Assembly (NCBI RefSeq): GCF_022701255.1
Contig: NZ_CP031705.1
Location: 2,555,501 to 2,619,500 of the forward strand
Direction: 5' to 3'
DNA: 64,000 bases
DNA from: Microcoleus vaginatus HSN003
GTDB taxonomy: Bacteria; Cyanobacteriota; Cyanobacteriia; Cyanobacteriales; Microcoleaceae
Part shown: piece by piece, positions 5,970 through 18,352 of the stretch
How positions within the stretch are numbered: the first letter of the stretch is position 1
Layout: the number at the start of each line of letters is the position of its first letter
Notes under the pieces: generated by a model
What the model was told of the DNA's origin: nothing
The model's input: the letters and a program-made list of their open reading frames with translations, nothing else
Database searches by the model: none
Program-made: the position numbers and the translations under genes

Positions 5970-7250
5970 CTAAATTCTCACTGCAAAAGATGCTGCTAAT
6001 TCCCGTTCTGGTTCCATACCAACTGTAGGGGGCATGGAACGATTTGCTACTTGCTCGATCAGTTGTAAATGTTGTGGCAGCATTTTAGCTAAACTGTAGC
6101 GTTCTAGGGCAGTTTGACGGGCTTTGATGCGAATTTCTGCCATGCGGGTAGGATGGTCTAAAACTTCATCAATGCGATCGGCTACTTGTTTCGGTGAGAA
6201 GTAATCGACTAGCAAACCGTTTTCTCCGTCGCGGATAACTTCTCTGACTGGCCCGGTGTCGGAACCGATTACTAAACATCCGGTTGAGAGAGATTCAATC
6301 ATCGACCAAGATAACACGAAAGGTCTGGTCAAATAAACGTGTACGTCGGATGCTTGAATTACTTTTAAATACAGTCCGTAAGGTAGGGGCCCGACAAAGT
6401 GAACTCGCGACAAATCTAGGGGGACTTTTTTGAGCATATAGTCTTTGTAAGACTCGCCGTTGGGTAAAGAACGCCCGTAACAAACTCTTTCGGAACCAAC
6501 GATTACGACGTGACAGTTGGGGCGGCGTTCTTGCACATAGGCGATCGACTCAATGAATTCGGGAAAACCTCGGTAAGGTTCCATTCCCCGCGATACGTAG
6601 GTGACAATTTCATCAACGCCAGACAAGTCTAAGTTAGGCAAAACCAGCTTAGCACCGGGGTCGGGTTTGAAGTAATCGGTATCTACGCCGTCGTGGAGTG
6701 TTGATAATTTTTGTTGTAATTCTGGCGGAAATTGCGATCGCTGCCAATAAGTGGGCGACAAACCCCAATCGCAAGAGTATAAATCAATCAAAATCGGCGC
6801 ATTTTTAACTCTAATTCGAGCCATGTCATCCACTGTTAAAGGTTCCGCTGGGTCAAAATCTGCGTCGGAACCAACAGCATGATAAAACCACTCGAAATAA
6901 CACAAAAGCGGCGTATTTGGAAAAGCTTCTTTGACAAATAATGTTGGCCCCCAACCGGAATGTCCGCAGATAATATCGGGTACGAAACCGTCTGCTTTGA
7001 GTTGTTCTGCCATTCTAAATACGGCTTGTCCGTAGATAACGGCACTTTCTAAAGGGCGGACGTATTGGTGAGTCTGCGCGTGGGGTTCTCGGCTGGGGGT
7101 AAATGCTGCTTTGCGAACGCCGGGAATGTTCCACTCTGGGCGCTCGTTTTTAGTGCCGAAAACAATTTGATTTTTGGGATCTGCGCCTAAAGCCGTGATA
7201 ATGTGGCGGTATTGGGCGGGGAAGTTGGGATGGAGAAATAATGCTTTCAT
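5970..7250 (-). CDS. Glycosyltransferase family 4
   Basis: This 426-aa GT-B fold protein begins MKALFLHPNFPAQYRHI, typical of the cyanobacterial GT4 subgroup with its own N-terminal acceptor domain. The C-terminal nucleotide-sugar domain shows VTYVSRGMEPYRGFPEF, then HFVGPLPYGLYLKVIQASDVHVYLT, and the GT4 donor-site pattern SMIESLSTGCLVIGSDTGPV followed by a Gly-Leu-Leu-Val turn. It probably transfers a hexose from a nucleotide sugar onto the glycan made by this operon; donor and acceptor cannot be read. It is the last gene of the minus-strand cluster. No Shine-Dalgarno is present: the bases before ATG are heptamer repeats (7251-7307). Confidence 0.9.
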   Translation of the reverse strand: MKALFLHPNFPAQYRHIITALGADPKNQIVFGTKNERPEWNIPGVRKAAFTPSREPHAQTHQYVRPLESAVIYGQAVFRMAEQLKADGFVPDIICGHSGWGPTLFVKEAFPNTPLLCYFEWFYHAVGSDADFDPAEPLTVDDMARIRVKNAPILIDLYSCDWGLSPTYWQRSQFPPELQQKLSTLHDGVDTDYFKPDPGAKLVLPNLDLSGVDEIVTYVSRGMEPYRGFPEFIESIAYVQERRPNCHVVIVGSERVCYGRSLPNGESYKDYMLKKVPLDLSRVHFVGPLPYGLYLKVIQASDVHVYLTRPFVLSWSMIESLSTGCLVIGSDTGPVREVIRDGENGLLVDYFSPKQVADRIDEVLDHPTRMAEIRIKARQTALERYSLAKMLPQHLQLIEQVANRSMPPTVGMEPERELAASFAVRI

Positions 7251-7344: not shown

Positions 7345-9009
7345 TTATTCATTGGGGGTTGGTGCTTTGCATATCCACACGCAATCTCGCGGTACTGAAG
7401 ATGTATTTTTCAGGAGGATTTCATAGTTTAAATGAGTGAGAAATTTTTCCATAATTGTATCAGTCATAACTGAAAATGCTGTGCCGTCTCTGCGTCCCAG
7501 CAGGTTTTTGTCCCACTCGCTGGCGAATTTTTGCCACCCTAATTCGCTGAGAATATTGCCGTGGTGAAAGACGCAAATTCGATCGCCGCGCAGTAGTTTG
7601 GGGATTTGAGTTAGGTAGTTGAATATGTCTACCGGCTCTATGTGTACCATTGTATCGTAACAAAAGCAGGCATCGGCTGAGGACGGGGCGATGCTGTCTA
7701 ATGTTAAACCGTCGAGTTTGACGTAAGAAACGCGATCGCTCCCCAAGCGCGATCGGGCGGCTTGCAGCATTTGACTGGAAATGTCGGCACAAATTAGTTG
7801 ATCGCAATATTTCAGCAACAGCGAACCTGTTTTTCCGCCGCCGATACCAATTTCTAAAACCCTATGTTCTTTTTTGATGTACGGTGCAATAAATTGCTGT
7901 TCTATCAAGGATTCATATTCTGATAGCGAGTTAGCCGCACCGGCACCTTTCCCTATCCATTCATCCCCCAAATAAGCGAGTTCAGGATTATTGTCTTTCC
8001 ATTCTTGGGCGTAGCTATCCCAAGCTTCTTCGTAGTCTATTTTAGGCGGTATTATTTCCATTGTTTTTGGTTTTTTTTGTCTCAGAATACACAAACAAAA
8101 ATCGCTTGATAGTCCTCCGGGTACAGCCATTAAGATTTTTTCAATCTCAAGCAATAACTTGACGATCGTTTCACTCTTGGGCTCTCCGTCTGAAAGTTGA
8201 TAGTGATCTAACAAAGGGTAAAGTTCGTGAAGCAACCCCCCACCGGCTGGATTCAAGACTTCCACATCAAAGTAGAATTCTAAAAACGGAAGTATCAGCT
8301 TTGACCGGACTGCTTCTGAAGGGTCTTTCGCCAATACTCTCTCAATACTTGGACTCGTAAATATTTCACTTGTTCCCGATCTTAGCGTGTAGTGAAAACA
8401 TTTGTAAATGCCATTAATCAAATTCATTTGATTTTGATTGTATATATTGTAGCAATCTCCTATGTATTCATTTACAATAAAATATCCATCTGGTTTTAAA
8501 CATTTCCGAACACTTGATAAACATCGTTCTAGTTCTCTGACGTGGTGCAGCGAACCCGAGCAAAAAACGAGATCGTATTTTTTATTATCATCAATCGTAA
8601 ACAAATTAAAGTCATCTTGATAAAAATTAATCTCTACTCCCGCTGCTGCGGCATCTTTTCTAGCAATTTCTAAAGAACTTTCAGAAAAGTCAAACGCATC
8701 AATCTGAGTGACTAATCCTAATTTAGCCATCGCGATCTCGTGATTCCCCACACCGCAACCAATAGACAAAAGACGATCGAACCGTCGATCTTTGAAATAA
8801 TTTTTGACTAACCACTGTAGCCAGTAATCATGAGCCTGACCACCTGACAACCGCTGGTTTATAGCTTTTTCAATAATTGGATTAGACAACCAGTAACCTT
8901 GCTTCCCAATGGCGGCTGTTGGGTTAGTCTCCCAGTAATTTTTAGCTGTTAATTCATTGGAGCTGTTCTCTTCCCTAGGCTCAGAATTGGACTCCATACT
9001 TTTCCCCAT
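7345..9009 (-). CDS. Tandem SAM-dependent methyltransferase (two class I domains)
   Basis: This 554-aa protein has two separate class I methyltransferase domains. The first, about residues 60-270, has the SAM loop LLSIGCGVGNHEIAMAK near 80 and an acidic motif II (QIDAFDFSE), then FCSGSLHHV. The second, about 365-550, has VLEIGIGGGKTG near 380, LICADIS, and CYDTMVHIEP. The two halves are not close copies, so this looks like a fusion rather than a recent duplication. It starts 14 nt after the stop of the giant glycosyltransferase gene, so it is in the same transcript. A role in O-methylation of the exported glycan is inferred from context. The TTG- or GTG-free N-terminus gives M1 as the only strong start; M5 is also possible. 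Confidence 0.85.
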   Translation of the reverse strand: MGKSMESNSEPREENSSNELTAKNYWETNPTAAIGKQGYWLSNPIIEKAINQRLSGGQAHDYWLQWLVKNYFKDRRFDRLLSIGCGVGNHEIAMAKLGLVTQIDAFDFSESSLEIARKDAAAAGVEINFYQDDFNLFTIDDNKKYDLVFCSGSLHHVRELERCLSSVRKCLKPDGYFIVNEYIGDCYNIYNQNQMNLINGIYKCFHYTLRSGTSEIFTSPSIERVLAKDPSEAVRSKLILPFLEFYFDVEVLNPAGGGLLHELYPLLDHYQLSDGEPKSETIVKLLLEIEKILMAVPGGLSSDFCLCILRQKKPKTMEIIPPKIDYEEAWDSYAQEWKDNNPELAYLGDEWIGKGAGAANSLSEYESLIEQQFIAPYIKKEHRVLEIGIGGGKTGSLLLKYCDQLICADISSQMLQAARSRLGSDRVSYVKLDGLTLDSIAPSSADACFCYDTMVHIEPVDIFNYLTQIPKLLRGDRICVFHHGNILSELGWQKFASEWDKNLLGRRDGTAFSVMTDTIMEKFLTHLNYEILLKNTSSVPRDCVWICKAPTPNE

Positions 9010-9023
9010 TGAATCTTGAAAGG

Positions 9024-12000
9024 TTACTTTTTAGTAAAATAAGCTTCTCGAAAAATTTGACCGTAAGTTTGAGTCATTTCTGCAAAAGTATTCAACGACT
9101 CTAACACATATTTAGCATTTTCTGCTAACCGCTGGCGCAAAGATTTATCGTCCAATAAAGTATGCAGTGATGCCGCTAGTTCTTCGGGACGATCGGGCGT
9201 ATAAAATAAACCATTAATTCCTGGGCGCACTTGTTCTCTAATTCCAAAAACAGGCGTTGTAATAATTGGCAAATCGCAAGCCATCGCCTCCAAAATCACT
9301 CTCGGAAAACTTTCGACGCGAGAAGTGCAAACAAAAACATCAGCCGCTTTGTAATATTTCCCTGTCTCCCCAGTTTCCGGGACTACTGTCACCCTTTGCC
9401 GCAACTCTTCGGGCAATTCTTCCACCAACTCGGCTAATTTATTGCTGTAAATACTCGGGCGATCGCCCACAATAAAACACCTAATTTTATTGTGCCATTT
9501 GTCAGGCAAAACTGAAAGTGCTTTAACTAAATCCTGCTGTCCTTTGCGTTCGCATACCGTTCCCAGCAGCAAAATTACCACATCTTCCGCTGCAACACCT
9601 AAACTTTTTCTAGCCAATTCAGAATCCTCCGAATTTTCCAGTTTGCTCAAATCTAAGCCGTTGTGAATCACGGTAAAATTGTGGTGGCTGTTGAGAGACA
9701 AATACCTATCCCGCGTTGCGTCCGCTACAAAAATTACCTTGTAAGGAAAGCGAAAACACTCTAAAGCTCTCGACGCAATCTCAGAACCAAACCTGTTAAA
9801 ATAAGTTTGCCAAGGTTCGCTTTCGTGCACGTTCCACACCACAGGAATTCCGATTTCGCGCGCCGCATCAACTACAAAAAAGTTTTCTAAAGTATTGGCA
9901 TAAATGGTATCTACTTTTAAACTTGCAATTTCTGTGCTAAAACTGCGAATGGCTTGATCATAAGCATCGCGCTGATAGATGTGTTCGAGAGGATTATCGC
10001 GCACAATTACTTCAATTCCCTGCTGTTCGTAAGCTTGACGCAGAGGCCCCTCTGTTGTGCAAAGTACGATCGGCTTAATCACACCCTCAGCCGCCAATTT
10101 CACCGCGATTTCGTACTGATGCAGCGGCGCCCCAGTGAAATCCAGCGAATTGCTGCACATCAAAACTTTGATAGGATGGATAGAACTGTTTGCTACTGAT
10201 AACAAACCACACTCAGCCAATTCTAATTCTTCCTTATTCCTGACATCCGTTACATCTATATCAGTTACATCTTGTACAGTGTTCGTTGCCGAACTTCCTT
10301 CTTCCTTCATAAAAACCCGTCGAGGTTGAATATGAAAATACTCATCTTCTAAAGACAAGTGAGGACTGTAAAAACTGTCATTTTTCCCCGCATACTTGCG
10401 TCTAAAAGCCGCCACTTCTTGAGGATTGTCGGTAAAACCCCTAGAAGTTCCCTCTTTGTGCAACAACTCCGCATCAGGACAATATACGCACCGATAACCC
10501 CGTTCTAACAGTCGGTATCCGTAATCTGCATCATTGTAAGCAACCGCAAAATTCTCTTCATCAAAACCGCCTAATTCTAAGAACAATTGACGCGGAGTAA
10601 TCGTGCAAGCGGCTGTTACCGCAGAGTAATTTCGCGTTACCATCGCTTGAGAAAGATAGCCTCGATTGTCGCTGTTCATCAGCTTAAAAGCGTGACCCGC
10701 CAAACCATGATGCAGCCCGTGAATTACGCCCGCGTGCTGAATTCGGCCGTCGGGATATAACAGCCTCGCACCGACGGCACCCACGCCAGGGATTTGAGCG
10801 TATCCCACCATCTGACTCAGCCAGCGCGGGTTAATTACTTCAGTATCGTTGTTCAAAAACAACACATATTCGCTATCAACTTGTTCGGCAGCGCGGTTGT
10901 TAATTGCTGCAAAACTAAATTTGCCACCAGGATTTTTTATATGCAAAACTTGGCAAGTTAATTGCTTTAAATATTCCAGAGTTTTAGGGTCGTCGCTTTC
11001 GTTGTCGATGACGGCAACTTGATAATTTTTATATGTTGTAGTTTCTAGAGAATCCAGACAGGCTTTCAGCAATTGAAGCTGATTTTTAGTAGGAATAATT
11101 ACCGTTACTGATGGGCCATTATCCGGGAAATCCTGGGAAAATATGCCCAAATTTTCTTTAGTTGCCCATGCGTGCTGAGCGACATTGCCGTTAATTTGGC
11201 GGCGGTTGAGTGCGTCTTGAATGGCTTTTTGACCTGCGGCAAAACTGGCGGGTTTCGCGGCCCCAGATATGGCTGTAGAACCGGGTGCGGTTCGCCAGTG
11301 ATACAGCACTAATGGCAGGTGCGCGACGTGGCGAGAAATTTCGGTAGCTCTCAATGCAAAATCGTAATCTTGCGAACCTTCAAGACCTATCCGCAAACCG
11401 CCTATTTGTTCAAAAATGTGTCTTCTCACGGCGCACAAATGACCGAGATACATATAGGAAAGCAGCAGTTCCGGCGACCATTCCGGTTTGAATTGCGGGG
11501 CGAAGCGGCGACCTTTAGTGTCGATTTTGTCGTCGTCGGAATAGAGAAAATCGGTGTCGGGATGCGAGGCAAAATATAGGGCGACTTCGCCTAATGCGTC
11601 GGGAGTGAGTTCGTCGTCGTTGTCTAAAAACAGGATGATGTCGCCTGTTGCGAGGGCGGCGGCGCTGTTAGTTGCTGCGCTGATGTTGCCGTTTTCTGTA
11701 CGAAATGTGATGCGGATACGATCGTCCTTTTGAACCCAGTTTTTCAAAGTGTCAGCAACAGTGACATCGGTGCTACAATCGTCGGCAATGCAGAGTTCCC
11801 AGTTGAAATAAACTTGATTGATTACGCTGTCGATCGCACTTTTGAGAAAATCTATCTGCGGATTGTAAACTGGCATCACCACCGAAATTTTTGGTAGCGG
11901 TTCCCCGCAGGACTTTAAGCGAGAAATCAAGTAATCGCGCGCGCGATCGTTCCATTGATTCACCTCCAGCCAAGCGTCATATCTATCAATAGGTTTAGGC

Positions 12001-14387
12001 ACGACAAAACCCGCAGGTGGCAGCAAATCTCCCGGCGCAGTAAACTGTTTTTGCTGCCGGTAAATCTTCCCCAACTGGCGGAGCACTTTCACAATTTCCC
12101 AAGGCATCGGCACAATCCTGCCCAGACGCTGTTTTCTTTCCCTCGCCCGCTGCTGGATTGCGACTGTAAACCTTGATAACTCCTCAAATTTATCAGCACT
12201 TCGCTGCCAAATATGGTAGCGCCGCACAGTCAATTTTTTCGGCGCTTGAAAAGACAAAATTTCCCCGGTTTCTAACTCAGCTTGCAGAGAAACGTGCCAT
12301 TCGCCCGGAGGCAAATCGACAAGGGCCTCAAAACCGCTTTCCGAACTGTTAACCCAGTCGGGAAACACTTCGCCGACATCTTTTCGCCGCAAACCGTAGG
12401 CGCATTCTACAGAAGTATCGCCACACAACAAGCTTAATTTAGCAATTTTGCGATCGTGGTGGCAGCACCAACCTGCAAACAAAATTTGACCCTGACGCTG
12501 TTCCCACAGCACCGGTACATCTAACGATGCTTGAATCGTTGAAACTAACAACGGATAAGCTGCCAAAAGATGCCATTTACCTTGATCATCTTGCGCTTCC
12601 AGTAGCACTTCGTGCCGTCCGGCAGGCGCTTCCAATTGAATTGTAAAACCTGATTTCTTCGCAGCCGGAATATTAGAGTGTGCTAGCGCTATATCACTTC
12701 TATCTATGCCGTAAACGCCTGCGAAACTCTGGTCTTTAATTCTGGCCCGGACTGCTGTAGTCTCTCTTTTTTTGTGAAAAACCCAGCCCACAATTAGCAG
12801 GTGGGAATCGGAAACTTGCCAAGTAGTGGGTTGGTCTAACGAAAAAATAAATTTAGGGAACAAGTCGCGGATTTTGCGCTGAACTTCCCACAATTTTTCT
12901 CTCACTTGCCACCATCTAGAAGACTTGATTGTAGCAAGTTCTGCCCGAAAAATTTCATTTTCCTGGCGGGCTTGTTCTAAATTTTCCTGAGTATCCTTTA
13001 ATTTTTCCTGAGTTTGACTTTGGGCTGTTTCTAACTGAAGTAACTCAGCTAACTTTTGCTGCAATACAAATTCTGTTTCTTCAAATTGTACCTGAGTTTG
13101 CCCTAATTCGGCTTCTAATTCTAATACTTTCGCTAAAGCTTCTTGAAATTGCGATTCTTTGCCTGCAAGCTGTACCTGAGTTTGTCCTAATTCTGTTTCT
13201 AATCCCAGGAGTTTCGCTAACGCTTCTTGAAAATTTGATTCTTTACCTGCAAGCTGTACCTGAGTTTGCCCTAATTCTGCTTCTAATTCTAATACTTTTT
13301 TTAAAGCTTCTTGAAATTGTGATTCTTTGCCTGCAAGCTGTACCTGAGTTTGTCCTAATTCTGTTTCTAATCCGAGGAGTTTTGCTAAAGCTTCTTGAAA
13401 ATTTGATTCTTTACCTGCAAGCTGTACTTGAGTTGCTCCTAATTCTGTTTCCAAGCCCAACACTTTCGCCTGGGCCTCGTGAAATTGTTCTTGCCACTGT
13501 TTGAGTTCGGAAGACCTAGTTTTTTGCTGTTTTTCCAGCAAGCGGATTTTTAGCCAATCTTCAAATGGCCAGACTGGAGAGGCTGGGAAATGAATAGCTT
13601 GATCGATCGCATCTTTCGATTCGCTGCTCAGATTGCCAGCTTGGGTTTCCAAAAGTTCATATAGTTCTAATGCTTCGGGAAAATATTTTTCTATTAAACT
13701 TGGTCTGTGACTTTTGACACTATCATTGACTAATAAAGATTCTTCAAAATTGTCGCCCGGTATCGCACCTAAGTTAACGTTAAATTTTTCGTTGACTCGA
13801 TCGAGGAAAAGTTCAGGAGTGTTCCCGATGGGGTAAACGTTGGCTAGCAGACAGCGATGAGGAAAACGTTCGTAAAGTTCTAAAACTTTTTGATTGTAGT
13901 GAATCCACATTTTTACTGCCATTTCGGGATTTTGCAGCAAGCTGACATCGGTTCCCCGGCGGTAAAGGGAATCGACTACTTCCCAGGGCGATCGATAAAC
14001 ACAGATAAAATTAGCTTCGGGGAGTAAATTCAGCCAAAAATCCCAAAAAAGAGCTGTTCGGGGGTCTTTCCAACCCCAATGCTTGTGAGTTTGTTGATTT
14101 TGCTCGATCGCGCGTTTGGCGATTTCCACGTATTCCGCTGCTACCGGAATCGTTTTTTCAAACGTACATCCGAGTTCATCAATACCCTGCGATCGCAAAA
14201 CACTTTTGTGCAACTCCACAAAATCAACATTCTCGAAATGACCTTTCACATTTCCGTCAGCCGGGCCCACTAACTTTTTGCCAATATCAACCCCGACTTT
14301 CTGAAACAAAGAAGCTGTTAAAGACGTACCGGAACGGTGCATTCCGGTAACAATAAAAACCGACGGTTTGCTGTCATTTGTACTCAC
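9024..14387 (-). CDS. Giant sulfotransferase-coiled coil-GT2-GT2-GT4 protein
   Basis: The 1787-aa product joins several enzymes. Residues 1-270 form a sulfotransferase-family domain with a P-loop-like PAPS site (IVTGMHRSGTSLTA) and a KDPRT motif. About 280-485 is a coiled coil built from 28-residue repeats, ending in SSRWWQVREKLW. About 520-745 holds two beta-rich modules with GW...R-x-D...SGF features. GT2 number 1 starts near 832 (ISVVMPVYNP, LFLDNDDEL), GT2 number 2 near 1092 (VTVIIPTKNQ, LFLNNDTEV), and a GT4 domain near 1404 (VLMCSNSLDFTGAPLHQYEI; FVCTSRVESFPRVILEAMAC). It likely builds several linkages of a glycan and may sulfate it; this combination of activities is inference. It lies between two methyltransferase genes. 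A dispersed repeat is translated in the linker near residue 1370. Confidence 0.9.
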   Translation of the reverse strand: MSTNDSKPSVFIVTGMHRSGTSLTASLFQKVGVDIGKKLVGPADGNVKGHFENVDFVELHKSVLRSQGIDELGCTFEKTIPVAAEYVEIAKRAIEQNQQTHKHWGWKDPRTALFWDFWLNLLPEANFICVYRSPWEVVDSLYRRGTDVSLLQNPEMAVKMWIHYNQKVLELYERFPHRCLLANVYPIGNTPELFLDRVNEKFNVNLGAIPGDNFEESLLVNDSVKSHRPSLIEKYFPEALELYELLETQAGNLSSESKDAIDQAIHFPASPVWPFEDWLKIRLLEKQQKTRSSELKQWQEQFHEAQAKVLGLETELGATQVQLAGKESNFQEALAKLLGLETELGQTQVQLAGKESQFQEALKKVLELEAELGQTQVQLAGKESNFQEALAKLLGLETELGQTQVQLAGKESQFQEALAKVLELEAELGQTQVQFEETEFVLQQKLAELLQLETAQSQTQEKLKDTQENLEQARQENEIFRAELATIKSSRWWQVREKLWEVQRKIRDLFPKFIFSLDQPTTWQVSDSHLLIVGWVFHKKRETTAVRARIKDQSFAGVYGIDRSDIALAHSNIPAAKKSGFTIQLEAPAGRHEVLLEAQDDQGKWHLLAAYPLLVSTIQASLDVPVLWEQRQGQILFAGWCCHHDRKIAKLSLLCGDTSVECAYGLRRKDVGEVFPDWVNSSESGFEALVDLPPGEWHVSLQAELETGEILSFQAPKKLTVRRYHIWQRSADKFEELSRFTVAIQQRARERKQRLGRIVPMPWEIVKVLRQLGKIYRQQKQFTAPGDLLPPAGFVVPKPIDRYDAWLEVNQWNDRARDYLISRLKSCGEPLPKISVVMPVYNPQIDFLKSAIDSVINQVYFNWELCIADDCSTDVTVADTLKNWVQKDDRIRITFRTENGNISAATNSAAALATGDIILFLDNDDELTPDALGEVALYFASHPDTDFLYSDDDKIDTKGRRFAPQFKPEWSPELLLSYMYLGHLCAVRRHIFEQIGGLRIGLEGSQDYDFALRATEISRHVAHLPLVLYHWRTAPGSTAISGAAKPASFAAGQKAIQDALNRRQINGNVAQHAWATKENLGIFSQDFPDNGPSVTVIIPTKNQLQLLKACLDSLETTTYKNYQVAVIDNESDDPKTLEYLKQLTCQVLHIKNPGGKFSFAAINNRAAEQVDSEYVLFLNNDTEVINPRWLSQMVGYAQIPGVGAVGARLLYPDGRIQHAGVIHGLHHGLAGHAFKLMNSDNRGYLSQAMVTRNYSAVTAACTITPRQLFLELGGFDEENFAVAYNDADYGYRLLERGYRCVYCPDAELLHKEGTSRGFTDNPQEVAAFRRKYAGKNDSFYSPHLSLEDEYFHIQPRRVFMKEEGSSATNTVQDVTDIDVTDVRNKEELELAECGLLSVANSSIHPIKVLMCSNSLDFTGAPLHQYEIAVKLAAEGVIKPIVLCTTEGPLRQAYEQQGIEVIVRDNPLEHIYQRDAYDQAIRSFSTEIASLKVDTIYANTLENFFVVDAAREIGIPVVWNVHESEPWQTYFNRFGSEIASRALECFRFPYKVIFVADATRDRYLSLNSHHNFTVIHNGLDLSKLENSEDSELARKSLGVAAEDVVILLLGTVCERKGQQDLVKALSVLPDKWHNKIRCFIVGDRPSIYSNKLAELVEELPEELRQRVTVVPETGETGKYYKAADVFVCTSRVESFPRVILEAMACDLPIITTPVFGIREQVRPGINGLFYTPDRPEELAASLHTLLDDKSLRQRLAENAKYVLESLNTFAEMTQTYGQIFREAYFTKK
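10264..10306. repeat. Dispersed ~40-bp repeat, copy inside the giant glycosyltransferase gene
   Basis: This copy shares TCGTTGCCGAACTTCCTTC and a preceding TACA(G/T)TG and GTTACATC with copies at 35543-35583 (same strand) and 62361-62402 (opposite strand). Here it is translated, giving the linker EGSSATNTVQDVTD between the second GT2 and the GT4 domain. Confidence 0.8.
13083..13445. repeat. 84-bp in-frame tandem repeats (coiled-coil coding)
   Basis: The segment reading CTGTACCTGAGTTTG (plus strand) recurs at about 13086, 13167, 13251, 13335 and 13419, roughly 84 bp apart. Each unit encodes 28 residues (four heptads) of the LGLETELGQTQVQLAGKES type. Two unit types alternate (LGLETEL and LELEAEL), giving a higher-order period of 168 bp. 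The near identity of units points to recent unequal exchange. Confidence 0.9.
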
Positions 14388-14429: not shown

Positions 14430-15929
14430 CTACTCTCCCGCTAAGCCCAGGGAGCGCCTGACTTGAAACCACGCGCTTCTGATCTTCCAGAACTTGCTGC
14501 TTTCCATTGCTAAAACTCGGCACTTCGCTTGCTCTACTTCTTCCTTGAGATTAATTAGTTGATTTTCCGTTTTCTCCAACTGCATTTGCACCGATAATAA
14601 GTGATTTTGAGTTTGCTCCAATTGTGTTTGAGCTAAAACTAATTCAGTTTGAGTTTCTTCCAACTTTGTTTCAGTAATCATTAACTTACTTTGCTTTTGC
14701 TCGCTTTCTATCCTAGCCGACTCTAACTGAGTCTCTAGTAATTTAAGTTTTGTCTGGGTAGACCCCAACAAAGACTGCGATTGCCTTTGGTTAACCAGCG
14801 ATTTAACAGTGCAAGTTTCCAGAATCCATTCCAAACCATAGTTATTGATTGCTTTGACTATTAACACCTCCTGCAGCCCCACCGTGTTTTTTGGTAAATA
14901 ACACCTCCAACCCGACTGCAAAGCCCCATCATTGTCAAAATATCCAGCCACATCAGGGCGATTGTAAAAAGGCTCGCACTTCTCTACAACCTCGCCGTTT
15001 ACCAGCACTTGCAGCTCGTTAACTCGACCCTCGAAATTCACATCAGCCACCCATCCTTCCAGATACAAATTCTCCTTATTCGTAAAAGCAGCAACATCAA
15101 TATATCCTTCGGGATGATGATGGAATTTCAACTCCGAAAAATCTCTAACTAACTCATTTGTTACAACATACAAATCCTGAAATCTGCATATACCTTTTTT
15201 GATGCGGTGAACAAAAGCTTTGCCTCCGCTAATTTTCTCGACACATTCTCTCACAAACTTTTCACTTACATAAGTTGTGCCGTATTCCTCCTTATCTAAA
15301 GATTGACTTTCGCTTTGAGGGCTAAACAAAATACCATTAGCCGGCATTTCTGTATTGGCTGCCCGCAAACACTCATCGTGAACGCTGAACATCAAAATGC
15401 CGTTAGGAGTCAACAAATCGTACAAATTGTGCAACCAGCTTGTAAAAGTTTTTTCCGGCATATGGCTGAAAAAGGAATTAGCCAGAATGCAGTCAAACTT
15501 GCGGTCAATTAAATAATTTTCTGGGTTTCCAGTTGAGACAATACCGTTGACGCCCAGGTATTCAGTTTGAAACTTAATCGCGTTAGCATAAATATCAGAA
15601 ACCCAAATTTGTTCCGGCGACATTTCCTGAATCAAAAACCGGGTAAATCGACCGTAACCGCAGGCAAAATCTAGAAAAGAGGGGACCTTTTCAAAACTGC
15701 CAAAATGCCATTCCACAACTTGTTTAACCGTATCCAAGATGCGACGCCCGATCGAATAATAGCGCACCAAAGCCCGATCGCGATCGTCTTTGACGTTCTT
15801 CAAGCTGAACAAATACATTTCATCGTCTTCGCAGATATTCAGTTTAAAATTTTCAGGAAACTTAGCTTGATCTTGAATAAATGCTTTAATTACAGGATTT
15901 TCGACTAAATCTAAATTGATATCACTCAT
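14430..15929 (-). CDS. SAM methyltransferase with C-terminal coiled coil
   Basis: This 499-aa protein has a class I methyltransferase domain at about residues 65-200 (FLDFACGYGRFTRFL near 88; IWVSDIYANAIKF; ILANSFFSHMPE). A beta-rich module follows at about 285-385 (GWVADVNFEGRVNELQVLVN; NRPDVAGYF; SGW). About 388-478 is a coiled coil rich in TQTxLExTQ heptads. The end is an amphipathic Trp/Arg tail (SSKFWKIRSAWFQVRRSLG) much like the one in the giant glycosyltransferase. It starts 15 nt after the ABC ATPase gene and lies upstream of the giant gene. The order of parts recalls WbdD, the chain-capping methyltransferase/kinase of ABC-dependent O-antigen systems, but I see no kinase domain. A capping role is inference. 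Confidence 0.88.
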   Translation of the reverse strand: MSDINLDLVENPVIKAFIQDQAKFPENFKLNICEDDEMYLFSLKNVKDDRDRALVRYYSIGRRILDTVKQVVEWHFGSFEKVPSFLDFACGYGRFTRFLIQEMSPEQIWVSDIYANAIKFQTEYLGVNGIVSTGNPENYLIDRKFDCILANSFFSHMPEKTFTSWLHNLYDLLTPNGILMFSVHDECLRAANTEMPANGILFSPQSESQSLDKEEYGTTYVSEKFVRECVEKISGGKAFVHRIKKGICRFQDLYVVTNELVRDFSELKFHHHPEGYIDVAAFTNKENLYLEGWVADVNFEGRVNELQVLVNGEVVEKCEPFYNRPDVAGYFDNDGALQSGWRCYLPKNTVGLQEVLIVKAINNYGLEWILETCTVKSLVNQRQSQSLLGSTQTKLKLLETQLESARIESEQKQSKLMITETKLEETQTELVLAQTQLEQTQNHLLSVQMQLEKTENQLINLKEEVEQAKCRVLAMESSKFWKIRSAWFQVRRSLGLAGE

Positions 15930-15944
15930 TGTTTTTACAGAATT

Positions 15945-17357
15945 TTAGATAACCTCTGTTGACTGCTCTTTCACTAGAGGATCAGCATTAACAACAGTTA
16001 AACACGGTTCGATCAGCAAGTCAACGATGCCGTTACCGCAGGACTCTGTACAAGACTGAACTCTAAACATCGCCACATCAACGCAGCGATCCAGATAAGT
16101 TAAATCTCCATCAACCGTTCCCACAACCCCAGCATTCAGAAAATAAACCCCGGGATTCAGCAAACATTTAAACTGAAACTTAACTACAATTGTCGTTCCT
16201 GCTTCCACATACCTAACTGACTGACTAGAAGCCTTCAAAGAAGCACCCGCCAACTCAAAACCGCTAATCGTTTTAATCAACATTCCAAACCTAACCTTGG
16301 AAGTTGACCTCGAAAAAGTGACAGAGTAAGTATAAATATAATCTTGACGGCCGAGCAAGTGATTTACCACATTTCCCTTCAGCGTCTCGATGTGGGGGTT
16401 GATAATTTCCGCTCCGCGAGACGGATACCTTACCGTATTCGAGGGTATCATCCCCGGATCGTAAAATTCATCGTAATATTCCTTGGGTTTAGAGAGATGT
16501 TGCTCCGGTTTAACTTCCCTCTTTGTGCTTTCTAAATTAGCATCCTGAAGGTGGTCTTGACTTTCCTGTTTTGTCAGTTGGTTCAGAGCTCGAATATCTG
16601 ACTTCAACCCCAGAACCTGATCCGGATCGGCATAAATCAGCTTTTGATACTTAGAAATTACCACCTTCGGCGTGTGAGCGAGCAGCAATTCACCGCTATC
16701 CATTAAAATCGCCGAGGTACAAAGTTGCACCACAGAAGTAGCAGCGTGAGAAACAAATAAAATCGTTCCGCCACCTTCCTGAATGCTTTGCAAGCGGGCA
16801 AAACACTTGCGTTGAAAAGCTTCGTCGCCCACCGAAAGCGCCTCGTCAACCACCAAAATATCTGGCTCGACGCTAGTCGCAACGGCAAAAGCTAGCCTGA
16901 CAAACATACCGCTAGAATAAGTTTTGACTGGCTGTTCGATGAAATCGCCAATATCAGCAAAAGCAGCTATATCGTCAAATTTTTCTTCAGTTTGTTTTTG
17001 ATTGAATCCCAGTAACTGAGCGTTAAAAAACACATTTTGTCGCCCGGTAAATTCCGGGTTAAACCCGCTTCCGAGTTCCAACAAAGCGGAGACTCGCCCT
17101 TTAACATCCACGCTTCCTGCGGTTGGAGTCAGCGTCCCTACAATTATTTGCAGGAGAGTGCTTTTTCCCGAACCGTTGCGACCGACGATTCCCAGAGTTT
17201 GTCCTTGAGGAATTTCCAGATTGATGTCGTGTAGGGCCCAAAATTCGTCAGCCAGTTTTTTGCTGGGGTAAATAATTTCCTTTAAGCGGTCTCCAGGATG
17301 ATCGTACCGCTTAAAGCATTTGGAAACATTTTTTAGTGAAATTACATTTTCTGTCAT
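15945..17357 (-). CDS. Polysaccharide ABC transporter ATP-binding protein (Wzt-like) with C-terminal domain
   Basis: This is a 470-aa ATPase of the ABC-2 glycan export type. It has Walker A GIVGRNGSGKST near 57-68, signature YSSGMFVRLAFAVA near 140, Walker B DILVVDEAL and the H-loop LFVSHAA. About 250-290 is a polar linker. About 300-450 is an all-beta region (VTFSRSTSKVRFGMLIKTIS; FQFKCLLNPGVYFLNAGV), as expected for the Wzt C-terminal cargo-binding domain. In characterised relatives that domain recognises the modified non-reducing end of the glycan. The membrane partner is encoded just upstream at 17492-18352. A gap of 134 bp filled by a tandem repeat separates the two. Confidence 0.93.
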   Translation of the reverse strand: MTENVISLKNVSKCFKRYDHPGDRLKEIIYPSKKLADEFWALHDINLEIPQGQTLGIVGRNGSGKSTLLQIIVGTLTPTAGSVDVKGRVSALLELGSGFNPEFTGRQNVFFNAQLLGFNQKQTEEKFDDIAAFADIGDFIEQPVKTYSSGMFVRLAFAVATSVEPDILVVDEALSVGDEAFQRKCFARLQSIQEGGGTILFVSHAATSVVQLCTSAILMDSGELLLAHTPKVVISKYQKLIYADPDQVLGLKSDIRALNQLTKQESQDHLQDANLESTKREVKPEQHLSKPKEYYDEFYDPGMIPSNTVRYPSRGAEIINPHIETLKGNVVNHLLGRQDYIYTYSVTFSRSTSKVRFGMLIKTISGFELAGASLKASSQSVRYVEAGTTIVVKFQFKCLLNPGVYFLNAGVVGTVDGDLTYLDRCVDVAMFRVQSCTESCGNGIVDLLIEPCLTVVNADPLVKEQSTEVI

Positions 17358-17368
17358 TGGCGGCAGTC

Positions 17369-17500
17369 AATCGATTTTAGATTTTAGATTTTAGATTTTA
17401 GATTGACTTGAAATCTCAAACATATTTACAGCACAATCGATTTTAGATTTTAGATTTTAGATTTTAGATTGACTGTATATCTCAAACAAATTTACAGCAC
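17369..17500. repeat. 66-bp tandem direct repeat with ATTTTAG heptamers
   Basis: Copies at 17369-17434 and 17435-17500 have the same length and differ at only about four positions. Each contains AATCG, four ATTTTAG heptamers, ATTGACT, ATCTCAAAC and TTTACAGCAC. The second copy includes the final nine bases of the ABC permease gene (stop at 17492-17494), so the first copy carries a duplicate of that gene end. The repeat fills most of the permease-ATPase spacer. Confidence 0.9.
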
Positions 17501-18352
17501 GTCAGCAAAAGCGGGACGCAAACGCCGGTAAACCGCCAAACCTCCACAAAATATAGCTGCAGAGATTAGTGTGGCGACACCCCATTCGCCCCAATGCTTA
17601 ACTTCTCCAACCAGTATGAGGTCTCGATAAACCTCCGAGATGGCAGCCATTGGATTTAGCCAAAATACCCACCCTCGCCACTCTTGGGGGATGATTGATG
17701 CTGGGTAGACGATCGGCGTCAAATAAAACCAAAAATTTAGAATAACACCTAATGTCTGAGGAATGTCTCGCAAAAATACAGTCAAGCCGGCTGTCAAATA
17801 TCCCAAACCAGCAGTTATCAGCAACTGAGGCACCCACACCAACGGCAGTAAGCATAAAGTAGCGTTGAGCTTTTGCGACGATACTGCTACTATCACAATC
17901 AAAGCTGCTAAACCCAGAGAACTTTCAAGAAAAGCTGTAAAAATCGGCACTAAGGGCAGCAAACCGAGAGGAAATACCACTTTTTTCACTAAATTCGGCT
18001 GCCCCACCACCGATACTCCCGACTTGATCAAACCGCTGGTGAAGGCAGTCCAAGGCAGCAAACCTGCAAACAACCAGACTCCAAATGTAATGTCGCTGTT
18101 TTCTGGGAAGCCTGCAAGGCTGAGCTTTACCTTGAGGACGATCGAAAATACGTATGTGTAAATCACCAATTGCGATAGCTGATTCAGCAGCGGCCACAAA
18201 TTGCCCAGAATCGAGCCTTTGTATTGAGCTTCCAAGTCCCGGCGCACCAATGTTGCCAGCAGATTCAGCTTCGCCCACCGTTGGCTACTTGCCTGCCGCC
18301 GCCGGCCCAGCCTTCGGGCCTTTTGGGCAAATTCTTTCACAGTTCTCTGCAA
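17492..18352 (-). CDS. Polysaccharide ABC-2 transporter permease (Wzm-like)
   Basis: This 286-aa membrane protein has an N-terminal amphipathic segment, the family motif LLATLVRRDLEAQYKGSILG near residues 30-50, and about six membrane spans. LTPIVYPASIIPQEWRGWVF and PMAAISEVYRDLIL are the usual ABC-2 (O-antigen/teichoic acid export) C-terminal motifs. It pairs with the ATPase at 15945-17357 to move an undecaprenyl-linked glycan across the inner membrane. The listed start is TTG; a GTG four codons in is an alternative. It is the first gene of the minus-strand cluster. Confidence 0.92.
   Translation of the reverse strand: MQRTVKEFAQKARRLGRRRQASSQRWAKLNLLATLVRRDLEAQYKGSILGNLWPLLNQLSQLVIYTYVFSIVLKVKLSLAGFPENSDITFGVWLFAGLLPWTAFTSGLIKSGVSVVGQPNLVKKVVFPLGLLPLVPIFTAFLESSLGLAALIVIVAVSSQKLNATLCLLPLVWVPQLLITAGLGYLTAGLTVFLRDIPQTLGVILNFWFYLTPIVYPASIIPQEWRGWVFWLNPMAAISEVYRDLILVGEVKHWGEWGVATLISAAIFCGGLAVYRRLRPAFADVL

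Follow-up and report, generated by a model that had tools for sequence, protein, structure and literature searches.

A Wzm/Wzt glycan locus of Microcoleus vaginatus with two coiled-coil enzymes and a candidate sulfate-bearing chain cap

Chain-end caps determine when an exported glycan is complete, and they allow the exporter to check it. How might such an end be made and read in a locus of Microcoleus vaginatus HSN003, where an ABC-exporter ATPase gene lies beside one for a methyltransferase with a coiled coil? We analysed the locus in a window of 64,000 nt (NZ_CP031705.1, 2,555,501-2,619,500), positions in which serve as coordinates throughout (Table 1). The pathways of sulfate-containing surface polymers in cyanobacteria are 'largely unknown' according to the available part of a phylum-wide survey (PMC4594306). 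Our main reading, to which we assign a probability of about 0.5, is that the window holds a Wzm/Wzt locus for a capped glycan with coiled-coil terminators, the cap bearing sulfate and perhaps also being methylated.

Table 1. Features of the locus, in positions of the 64,000-nt window
Feature	Position	Strand	Basis
GT4 glycosyltransferase, same direction	5970..7250	-	PF12000 + PF00534
Double methyltransferase, same direction	7345..9009	-	Pfam, two stretches
Sulfotransferase - coiled coil - tail - beta - beta - GT2 - GT2 - GT4 protein, 1787 aa, candidate terminator-polymerase	9024..14387	-	Pfam, alignments
Two GT2 and one GT4 glycosyltransferase domains	9111..11885	-	Pfam
Region of two beta (GW-like) domains, between tail and glycosyltransferases	12108..12755	-	Home-made profiles
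Internal tail of the 1787-aa protein, beginning SSRWWQVREKLWEVQRKIRDLF	12849..12923	-	Sequence, alignment
Coiled coil, 213 residues, 28-residue (84-bp) repeats; DNA repeat 13087-13469	12924..13562	-	Heptad counts
Sulfotransferase domain, residues 1-275, motifs GMHRSGTSL and RSPWEVVDSLYRRG	13563..14387	-	Sulfotransfer_3
Methyltransferase - beta domain - coiled coil - tail protein, 499 aa	14430..15929	-	Pfam, AF2, Wzt adjacency
C-terminal Trp/Arg tail SSKFWKIRSAWFQVRRSLGLAGE of the 499-aa protein	14433..14501	-	Alignment of 46 tails
Coiled-coil helix, residues 375-476	14502..14807	-	AF2, heptad spacing, a/d hydrophobics
Ig/FnIII-like beta sandwich, residues 270-375	14805..15122	-	AF2 models, Foldseek
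Class I SAM methyltransferase domain, residues 1-260	15150..15929	-	Methyltransf_12 and related Pfam profiles
Wzt, ATPase with C-terminal Wzt_C, 470 aa	15945..17357	-	ABC_tran + Wzt_C; solved chains 6amx, 8dku
Wzt_C carbohydrate-binding domain, Wzt residues 308-447	16017..16436	-	PF14524; solved Wzt C-domains
Wzm, ABC-2 membrane subunit of exporter	17492..18352, predicted start	-	PF01061 E 3e-19

Both genes from which the initial annotation had set out, the ATPase and the methyltransferase, are present, and the C-terminal beta domain that it described in the ATPase turned out to be a true Wzt_C. PF14524 covered the domain with its full profile (E 4e-26; 92 bits, cut-off 30.4), and a 32-domain Wzt_C profile, with that of the window as first member, recovered the solved chains 8dky, 6o14, 7k2t, 8dku, 2r5o and 5hno. 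The ATPase part matched 6amx and 8dku, which we take to be Aquifex Wzt (E 3e-69). Like the E. coli O9a/O8 WbdD-Wzt systems, the window has a Wzt with Wzt_C, a Wzm and a separate polymerase gene; a Wzt with a C-terminal carbohydrate-binding domain is a mark of ABC exporters of capped glycans.

The 499-aa protein is likewise a methyltransferase with a long coiled coil, as had been noticed. Methyltransf_12 matched residues 86-179 (E 1e-11), and the motif DFACGYGR is invariant across 19 aligned methyltransferase sequences. An AlphaFold2 (AF2) model (19 sequences; mean pLDDT 81.9) places the methyltransferase first, ending near residue 260, then a beta sandwich at 274-374, a single predicted helix of 102 residues at 375-476, a break, and a C-terminal helix at 479-493. 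Hydrophobic residues favour the a/d positions of the coiled coil (66% versus 19%), and 1 of 5000 shuffles was as good. Furthermore, of 37 reading frames, among them that of the window, 35 had a beta-domain-to-tail distance that departed from the mode by a multiple of 7; the remaining two departed from it by 11 and 18. The coiled coil is well supported because the AF2 helix, the a/d hydrophobics and the multiple-of-7 spacing all point to it; a home-made scan that missed the window's own coiled coil was discarded, and heptad counts and the AF2 model were used instead. An extended coiled coil on a modifying enzyme, another mark of capped-glycan systems, was thus found. Searched alone with Foldseek, the beta domain gave weak Ig/FnIII-like matches (best E 0.012); kinship to Wzt_C was considered and rejected (hhalign probability 0.8%). 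In 27 of the 29 loci L031-L059 the 499-aa-type gene directly follows Wzt in the same orientation. The two exceptions are a truncated contig (L054) and a divergent locus (L058).

This pair had been taken for a WbdD/Wzt-like capping module with a new, kinase-free ruler. A Wzm/Wzt_C exporter does stand beside a coiled-coil methyltransferase, and reading the locus as a capped-glycan locus of the WbdD/Wzt type is reasonable. Kinship to WbdD itself did not emerge: solved WbdD chains exist (PMC3482155, in its available part), and the profile of the 499-aa protein gave three hits at E<=0.01 among solved chains, none of them WbdD. The best 50 of 1430 Foldseek matches of the whole model were only generic class I methyltransferases, with no WbdD among them, and speak neither for nor against such kinship. 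Pfam and AF2 agree that a kinase domain is absent from the 499-aa protein, the beta sandwich occupying 274-374. Being kinase-free is not the novelty, because WbdD of E. coli O8 is methyltransferase-only, according to the available part of PMC3482155. The 499-aa protein is like O9a/O8 WbdD in its N-terminal methyltransferase, coiled coil and C-terminal tail region. It lacks the kinase domain that O9a WbdD has ahead of the coiled coil, after the methyltransferase (absent from O8 WbdD too), and it differs from WbdD in its intervening Ig-like beta domain.

Unlike the E. coli O9a/O8 systems, the window adds a second coiled-coil protein, headed by a sulfotransferase. The possible sulfotransferase of the initial annotation is real and lies in the next gene: Sulfotransfer_3 matched 31 of 31 aligned domains, that of the window with 29.5 bits (cut-off 27), and the full-length 1787-aa protein with 25.1 bits, below the cut-off. 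The motifs RSGTS and RSPxxxxxS are conserved, with R18, S19, G20, R132 and S140 invariant, and the GMHRSGTSL and RSPWEVVDSLYRRG motifs presumably bind PAPS. Among solved chains, the sulfotransferase profile matched tyrosylprotein and CurM sulfotransferases. Of 28 relatives measured, 25 differ in the length of the coiled coil behind this domain by a multiple of 7; the exceptions were L009, with a failed mapping and a negative value, the remote and cut L021, and L058, where the mapping hit a stretch outside the tail. The methyltransferase has no monopoly on coiled coil and tail; the next gene has them behind a sulfotransferase, and other heads carry them elsewhere. The 499-aa methyltransferase probably shares the role of terminator. 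By the descriptions in the available part of PMC11231755, Klebsiella WbbB (O12) is a terminator-coiled coil-GT-GT protein, and Klebsiella ORF6-O7, for which cyanobacterial orthologues are mentioned, is a methyltransferase-kinase-Ig-like CBM-coiled coil-GT-GT protein. The 1787-aa protein can be likened to both in its order of head, coiled coil and GTs, and the 499-aa protein to ORF6-O7 in its methyltransferase, Ig-like domain and coiled coil; unlike either, the 1787-aa protein is headed by a sulfotransferase and has no kinase. The caps named in that part of the source are methyl, phosphomethyl and Kdo.

We compared 74 dereplicated Wzt loci (109 minus near copies, each with at least 4 kb downstream); many of the compared loci had been obtained through similarity to the 499-aa gene. 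In 32 of them Wzt_C is at least 44% identical to that of the window, and all 32 have a sulfotransferase nearby, downstream on the same strand in 31 and on the opposite strand in L155. Where Wzt_C is less than 30% identical (42 of 74), a sulfotransferase was found in 3 (L110, L111 and L116; Wzt_C identity 18-23%). The same propensity was seen in the subset fetched through Wzt_C alone, with a sulfotransferase in 5/5 clade loci versus 0/17 others. Methyltransferases, on the other hand, occur both inside and outside the clade. As judged from these sequences, the Wzt_C clade tracks the sulfotransferase rather than the methyltransferase, and this suggests that the sulfotransferase may help make the chain end recognised by the exporter. 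With our home-made profiles, 6 of 35 sulfotransferase loci had no methyltransferase- or sulfotransferase-headed tail protein.

Methyltransferase and sulfotransferase also occur joined, ahead of one coiled coil and tail, in 11 distinct proteins, like the fused methyltransferase and kinase of WbdD. Fusion may be one event or two, because 10 of the 11 come from one family of genomes. Both domains were found by Pfam in three of four fused proteins tested; in the full-length proteins of L123 and L135, a sulfotransferase was not listed at E 0.001. Window-type methyltransferase hits in Wzt_C-holding loci from L060 upwards were accompanied by a sulfotransferase in 13/13 cases, 8 of them fusions; of further such methyltransferases, 8 have neither Wzt_C nor a sulfotransferase in their stretch, and 2 have a sulfotransferase only. 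A plasmid collection searched with a fused protein gave no full-length relative, as none of the 30 records returned reached 80% coverage of the query.

The tail of the 499-aa protein, initially called a Trp/Arg amphipathic one, is indeed Trp/Arg-rich, as well as basic and strongly conserved; its hydrophobic moment (0.24, reached by 3023 of 5000 shuffles) does not make it amphipathic on the scale used. Residues K, W, R and W are invariant in 46 aligned tails (from 60 out of 184, near copies omitted), an invariance that is partly selected because the tails had passed the search pattern. Heads in 178 unique tail ORFs were methyltransferase, sulfotransferase, GT2 (27 ORFs), GT4 or unassigned, and among the cyanobacterial loci retrieved, the module of coiled coil and tail follows methyltransferases, sulfotransferases or glycosyltransferases. 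The tail profile was present in 7/21 strong-Wzt_C regions, 0/19 weak-Wzt_C regions and 0/20 Wzx (flippase) regions; the 40 Wzt_C regions were hand-picked, with tail-fetched hits, the window's genus-mates and one near copy excluded and the second Wzt_C of the source genome included, and the Wzx regions were chosen among the best Wzx hits. In the whole source genome the tail's own site was the sole match at E<=0.001; a general role of the tail in cyanobacterial glycosyltransferases was rejected on this single hit and on the Wzx regions. Obligate co-occurrence of tail and Wzt_C was rejected too, as both occur together in 28 of 146 genomes, whereas 9 have just the tail and 18 just Wzt_C (9 of 37 tail-bearing genomes giving no Wzt_C hit at E<=0.001). 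The within-order table (25, 7, 10, 11) gave p 0.037, uncorrected for descent, and 16 of 60 tail-selected 20-kb regions held neither Wzm nor Wzt_C.

For the main reading we envisage that a lipid-linked chain is built up by the GT domains on the inner side of the membrane, and that the tails keep the terminators close to the membrane or to a common partner. The coiled coils, about 15 and 32 nm long if fully helical, would keep the head off the polymerase, so that only long-enough chains are capped. The sulfotransferase, in place of the WbdD kinase, would make the cap, the methyltransferase would act on or near the same end, and binding of the capped end by Wzt_C would license export. We put forward only tentatively the fuller version, in which a methyltransferase and a sulfotransferase, each on a coiled-coil ruler in Microcoleus but fused in another family, together produce a sulfated and O-methylated chain end, with the sulfotransferase replacing the WbdD kinase, a sulfate-specific Wzt_C clade as reader, and the SSKFWKLRxxW tail as a docking tag common to the enzymes that assemble ABC-type glycans in cyanobacteria. 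It counts against a sulfate cap that the repeat units could be what the sulfotransferases modify. If true, a cap that bears sulfate and is matched by a Wzt_C clade would be an added capping chemistry, caps could be predicted from genomes by a sequence rule, and length control would become testable in cyanobacteria. A 2019 paper by Mann, Kimber and Whitfield (Glycobiology 29:822) reportedly deals, by its title, with terminators, Wzt binding modules and the diversity of termination chemistry. Neither a sulfotransferase terminator nor this Trp/Arg tail was found in the available parts of the open-access literature (including PMC13171606, on E. coli capsules), a scope outside which the 2019 census lies.

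The variety of heads in front of the tail would also fit a mere assembly or membrane-docking module of ABC-type glycan enzymes, with no ruler and with methyl and sulfate as side decorations, the more so as the conservation of the tail exceeds the need of a plain membrane anchor and its moment is not amphipathic. We consider this unlikely, given that the tail is absent from the 20 Wzx regions, that coiled coils are described as a terminator marker in capped systems (available part of PMC11231755) and that docking and ruler roles are compatible. The link between sulfotransferase and Wzt_C could, alternatively, reflect shared operon descent only, the cap being something else, such as a sugar from a GT domain; GT2 heads are also found on the coiled coil. 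Indeed, the sulfotransferase label changes 3 times on the Wzt_C tree and 2 times on the NBD tree (L078 and L192, short stretches, were also left out of the 74 loci here), which makes the link essentially a single-clade one that operon descent explains as well as recognition does; for this label the Wzt_C tree had no advantage over the NBD tree. However, at equal NBD identity (70-75%) Wzt_C identity is split by the sulfotransferase, with medians of 51% in 245 sulfotransferase pairs, 24% in 103 pairs without and 22% in 135 mixed pairs, and this split, together with the fusions on one coiled coil, leaves descent alone highly improbable.

The methyltransferase of 499 aa might by itself be terminator and ruler, like O8 WbdD, with Wzt_C reading methyl and the sulfotransferase merely decorating the chain. 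A methyltransferase-only terminator is known (PMC3482155, in its available part), and the gene adjoins Wzt in nearly all close loci, yet the Wzt_C clade tracks the sulfotransferase, the next gene shares the coiled-coil layout and a similar tail, and orthologues of the 499-aa protein directly after Wzt in L168, L171 and L173 are free of the coiled coil; we therefore regard this as improbable for the window and retain the sulfate-bearing cap. In these three loci the sulfotransferase gene that follows is broken off at the contig end. Elsewhere in cyanobacteria methyl caps are likely, because tail-bearing Wzt loci without a sulfotransferase have a methyltransferase in 22/24 cases, a count that also speaks for the methyltransferase acting alone.

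By analogy, the locus would work like a capped-glycan system, with a polymerase, coiled-coil-borne terminator heads and a Wzt for recognition of the chain end; in contrast to the known systems, it has a sulfotransferase head. Its genes lie on the single 6.76-Mb contig of the host genome. In 27 of 29 close loci the methyltransferase gene directly follows wzt at its 3′ side and has the same orientation; of the two exceptions, L054 lies on a truncated contig and L058 has the genes arranged divergently. Between wzm and wzt lie two blocks of heptanucleotide repeats (GATTTTA units; window positions 17373-17400 and about 17439-17470).

Genes of the glycan export locus (window positions)
Gene	Position	Strand
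Wzm	17492-18352	minus
Wzt	15945-17357	minus
499-aa methyltransferase	14430-15929	minus
1787-aa protein	9024-14387	minus
Double methyltransferase	7345-9009	minus
GT4 enzyme	5970-7250	minus

The AlphaFold2 model of the 499-aa protein consists of a methyltransferase domain, an Ig-like beta domain, a single 102-residue helix, a break and a short helix. Hydrophobicity at the a/d positions and length changes in multiples of seven both speak for a coiled coil. Across 37 reading frames, counting the window's own (and with near copies, hence fewer independent events), the spacing between beta domain and tail was 111 (12 frames), 118 (18), 125 (3), or 90, 129, 136 and 146 (one each), so that 35 of the 37 are separated by multiples of seven. 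The tail that follows is very conserved among aligned relatives (consensus AMESSKFWKLRxxWFxxKxxLGL). The initial annotation, which described a Trp/Arg amphipathic tail, was right about its composition, and we add its conservation, but the hydrophobic moment gave no amphipathicity. Neither Pfam nor the model revealed a kinase domain; a kinase-free WbdD as such is not novel, because WbdD of E. coli O8 is described as methyltransferase-only in PMC3482155.

The initial annotation underrated the neighbouring 1787-aa protein, whose head is the sulfotransferase that it had listed as possible. All 31 aligned sulfotransferase domains match Sulfotransfer_3, and their profile matches solved sulfotransferases. 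Behind the head come, in order, a coiled coil of 213 residues, a tail, a pair of beta domains and three domains of glycosyltransferase type; the order of head, coiled coil and GT modules is shared with the terminators WbbB and ORF6-O7, as laid out in PMC11231755. The coiled coil consists largely of 28-residue repeats, seen in the DNA as 84-bp tandem repeats (window 13087-13469, 83-90% alike). In relatives this region differs by 7, 28 or 56 residues, and the length offset of the coiled coil is a multiple of seven in 25 of 28 measured, the other three being mapping failures or one remote, cut relative. We infer that either coiled coil could act as a ruler and that sulfate, methyl or both could stand at the chain ends.

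Eleven distinct proteins carry methyltransferase and sulfotransferase ahead of one coiled coil and tail (methyltransferase-beta-sulfotransferase in seven, methyltransferase-sulfotransferase in three, methyltransferase-sulfotransferase-GT2 in one). The sulfotransferase occupies the place of the kinase in WbdD, where methyltransferase and kinase share one coiled coil (PMC3482155). Pfam detects both domains in L118, L178 and L179. Ten fusions come from genomes of a single family (f4) and, therefore, may have arisen in as few as one or two events. L086, identical to L123, is the eleventh; it belongs to a different family, and its methyltransferase is not of the window type. In the full-length protein Pfam recognises the methyltransferase and GT2 domains and misses the sulfotransferase, although the sulfotransferase domain alone is among the 31 Sulfotransfer_3 matches.

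Among 74 dereplicated Wzt proteins, a sulfotransferase was encoded near all 32 that share 44% or more Wzt_C identity with the window's Wzt (in L155, on the other strand), and near 3 of 42 with less than 30% identity. In the subset fetched via Wzt_C alone, the counts were 5/5 for window-like versus 0/17 for distant Wzt_C. A methyltransferase was present in 28 of 35 sulfotransferase loci and in 32 of 37 loci without one. At 70-75% NBD identity, median Wzt_C identity was 51% among sulfotransferase loci, 24% among the others and 22% across groups. The sulfotransferase label changes three times on the Wzt_C tree and twice on the NBD tree; with so few changes, the association comes largely from a single clade and may be due to inheritance of the whole operon together. 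Confinement of most fusions to one family and the Wzt_C-only subset weigh on the odds in opposite directions. The window's genome has a second Wzm/Wzt locus (L204; G000:C1:233200-253199), with a 690-aa ATPase (Wzt_C match, 80 bits) and an 829-aa neighbour, a candidate sulfotransferase that matches our home-made sulfotransferase profile.

The tail profile found 178 distinct reading frames in loci L060-L187, with methyltransferase, sulfotransferase, GT2, GT4 or unassigned heads. Since these loci were fetched through similarity to the 499-aa protein, a second set was selected by Wzt_C or the flippase family PF13440. Here the tail matched in 7 of 21 strong-Wzt_C regions (an underestimate, because matches already fetched via the tail were omitted), 0 of 19 weak-Wzt_C and 0 of 20 Wzx regions. 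Two of the misses (L194, L199) end in a sulfotransferase that, judged by eye, bears a coiled stretch together with a Trp/Arg tail that has diverged. Run against the genome of the window itself, the profile (E≤0.001) matched nothing beyond the 499-aa protein. Across 146 genomes, 37 had the tail, 46 Wzt_C and 28 both; 60 tail-selected 20-kb regions contained Wzm and Wzt_C (34), Wzt_C only (3), Wzm only (7) or neither (16). Eight loci (L169, L170, L172, L174-L177 and L187) encode tail-less methyltransferase-beta orthologues in stretches without Wzt_C or sulfotransferase.

Outside cyanobacteria, proteobacterial plasmids of Azospirillum and Cereibacter encode proteins with a sulfotransferase-like head and, by eye, a long coiled coil (L250:6947-9022, L253:7022-8485); no Wzt is annotated within the stretches seen. 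The C-terminal end of the Cereibacter protein lies near SSTSWKVTRPIR, which may correspond to the tail found in cyanobacteria. A Comamonas plasmid (L251:4599-14444) encodes an ABC permease, a Wzt with Wzt_C, a methyltransferase (35% identical in its match to the L118 fusion) and a separate methyltransferase-GT2-GT4 protein.
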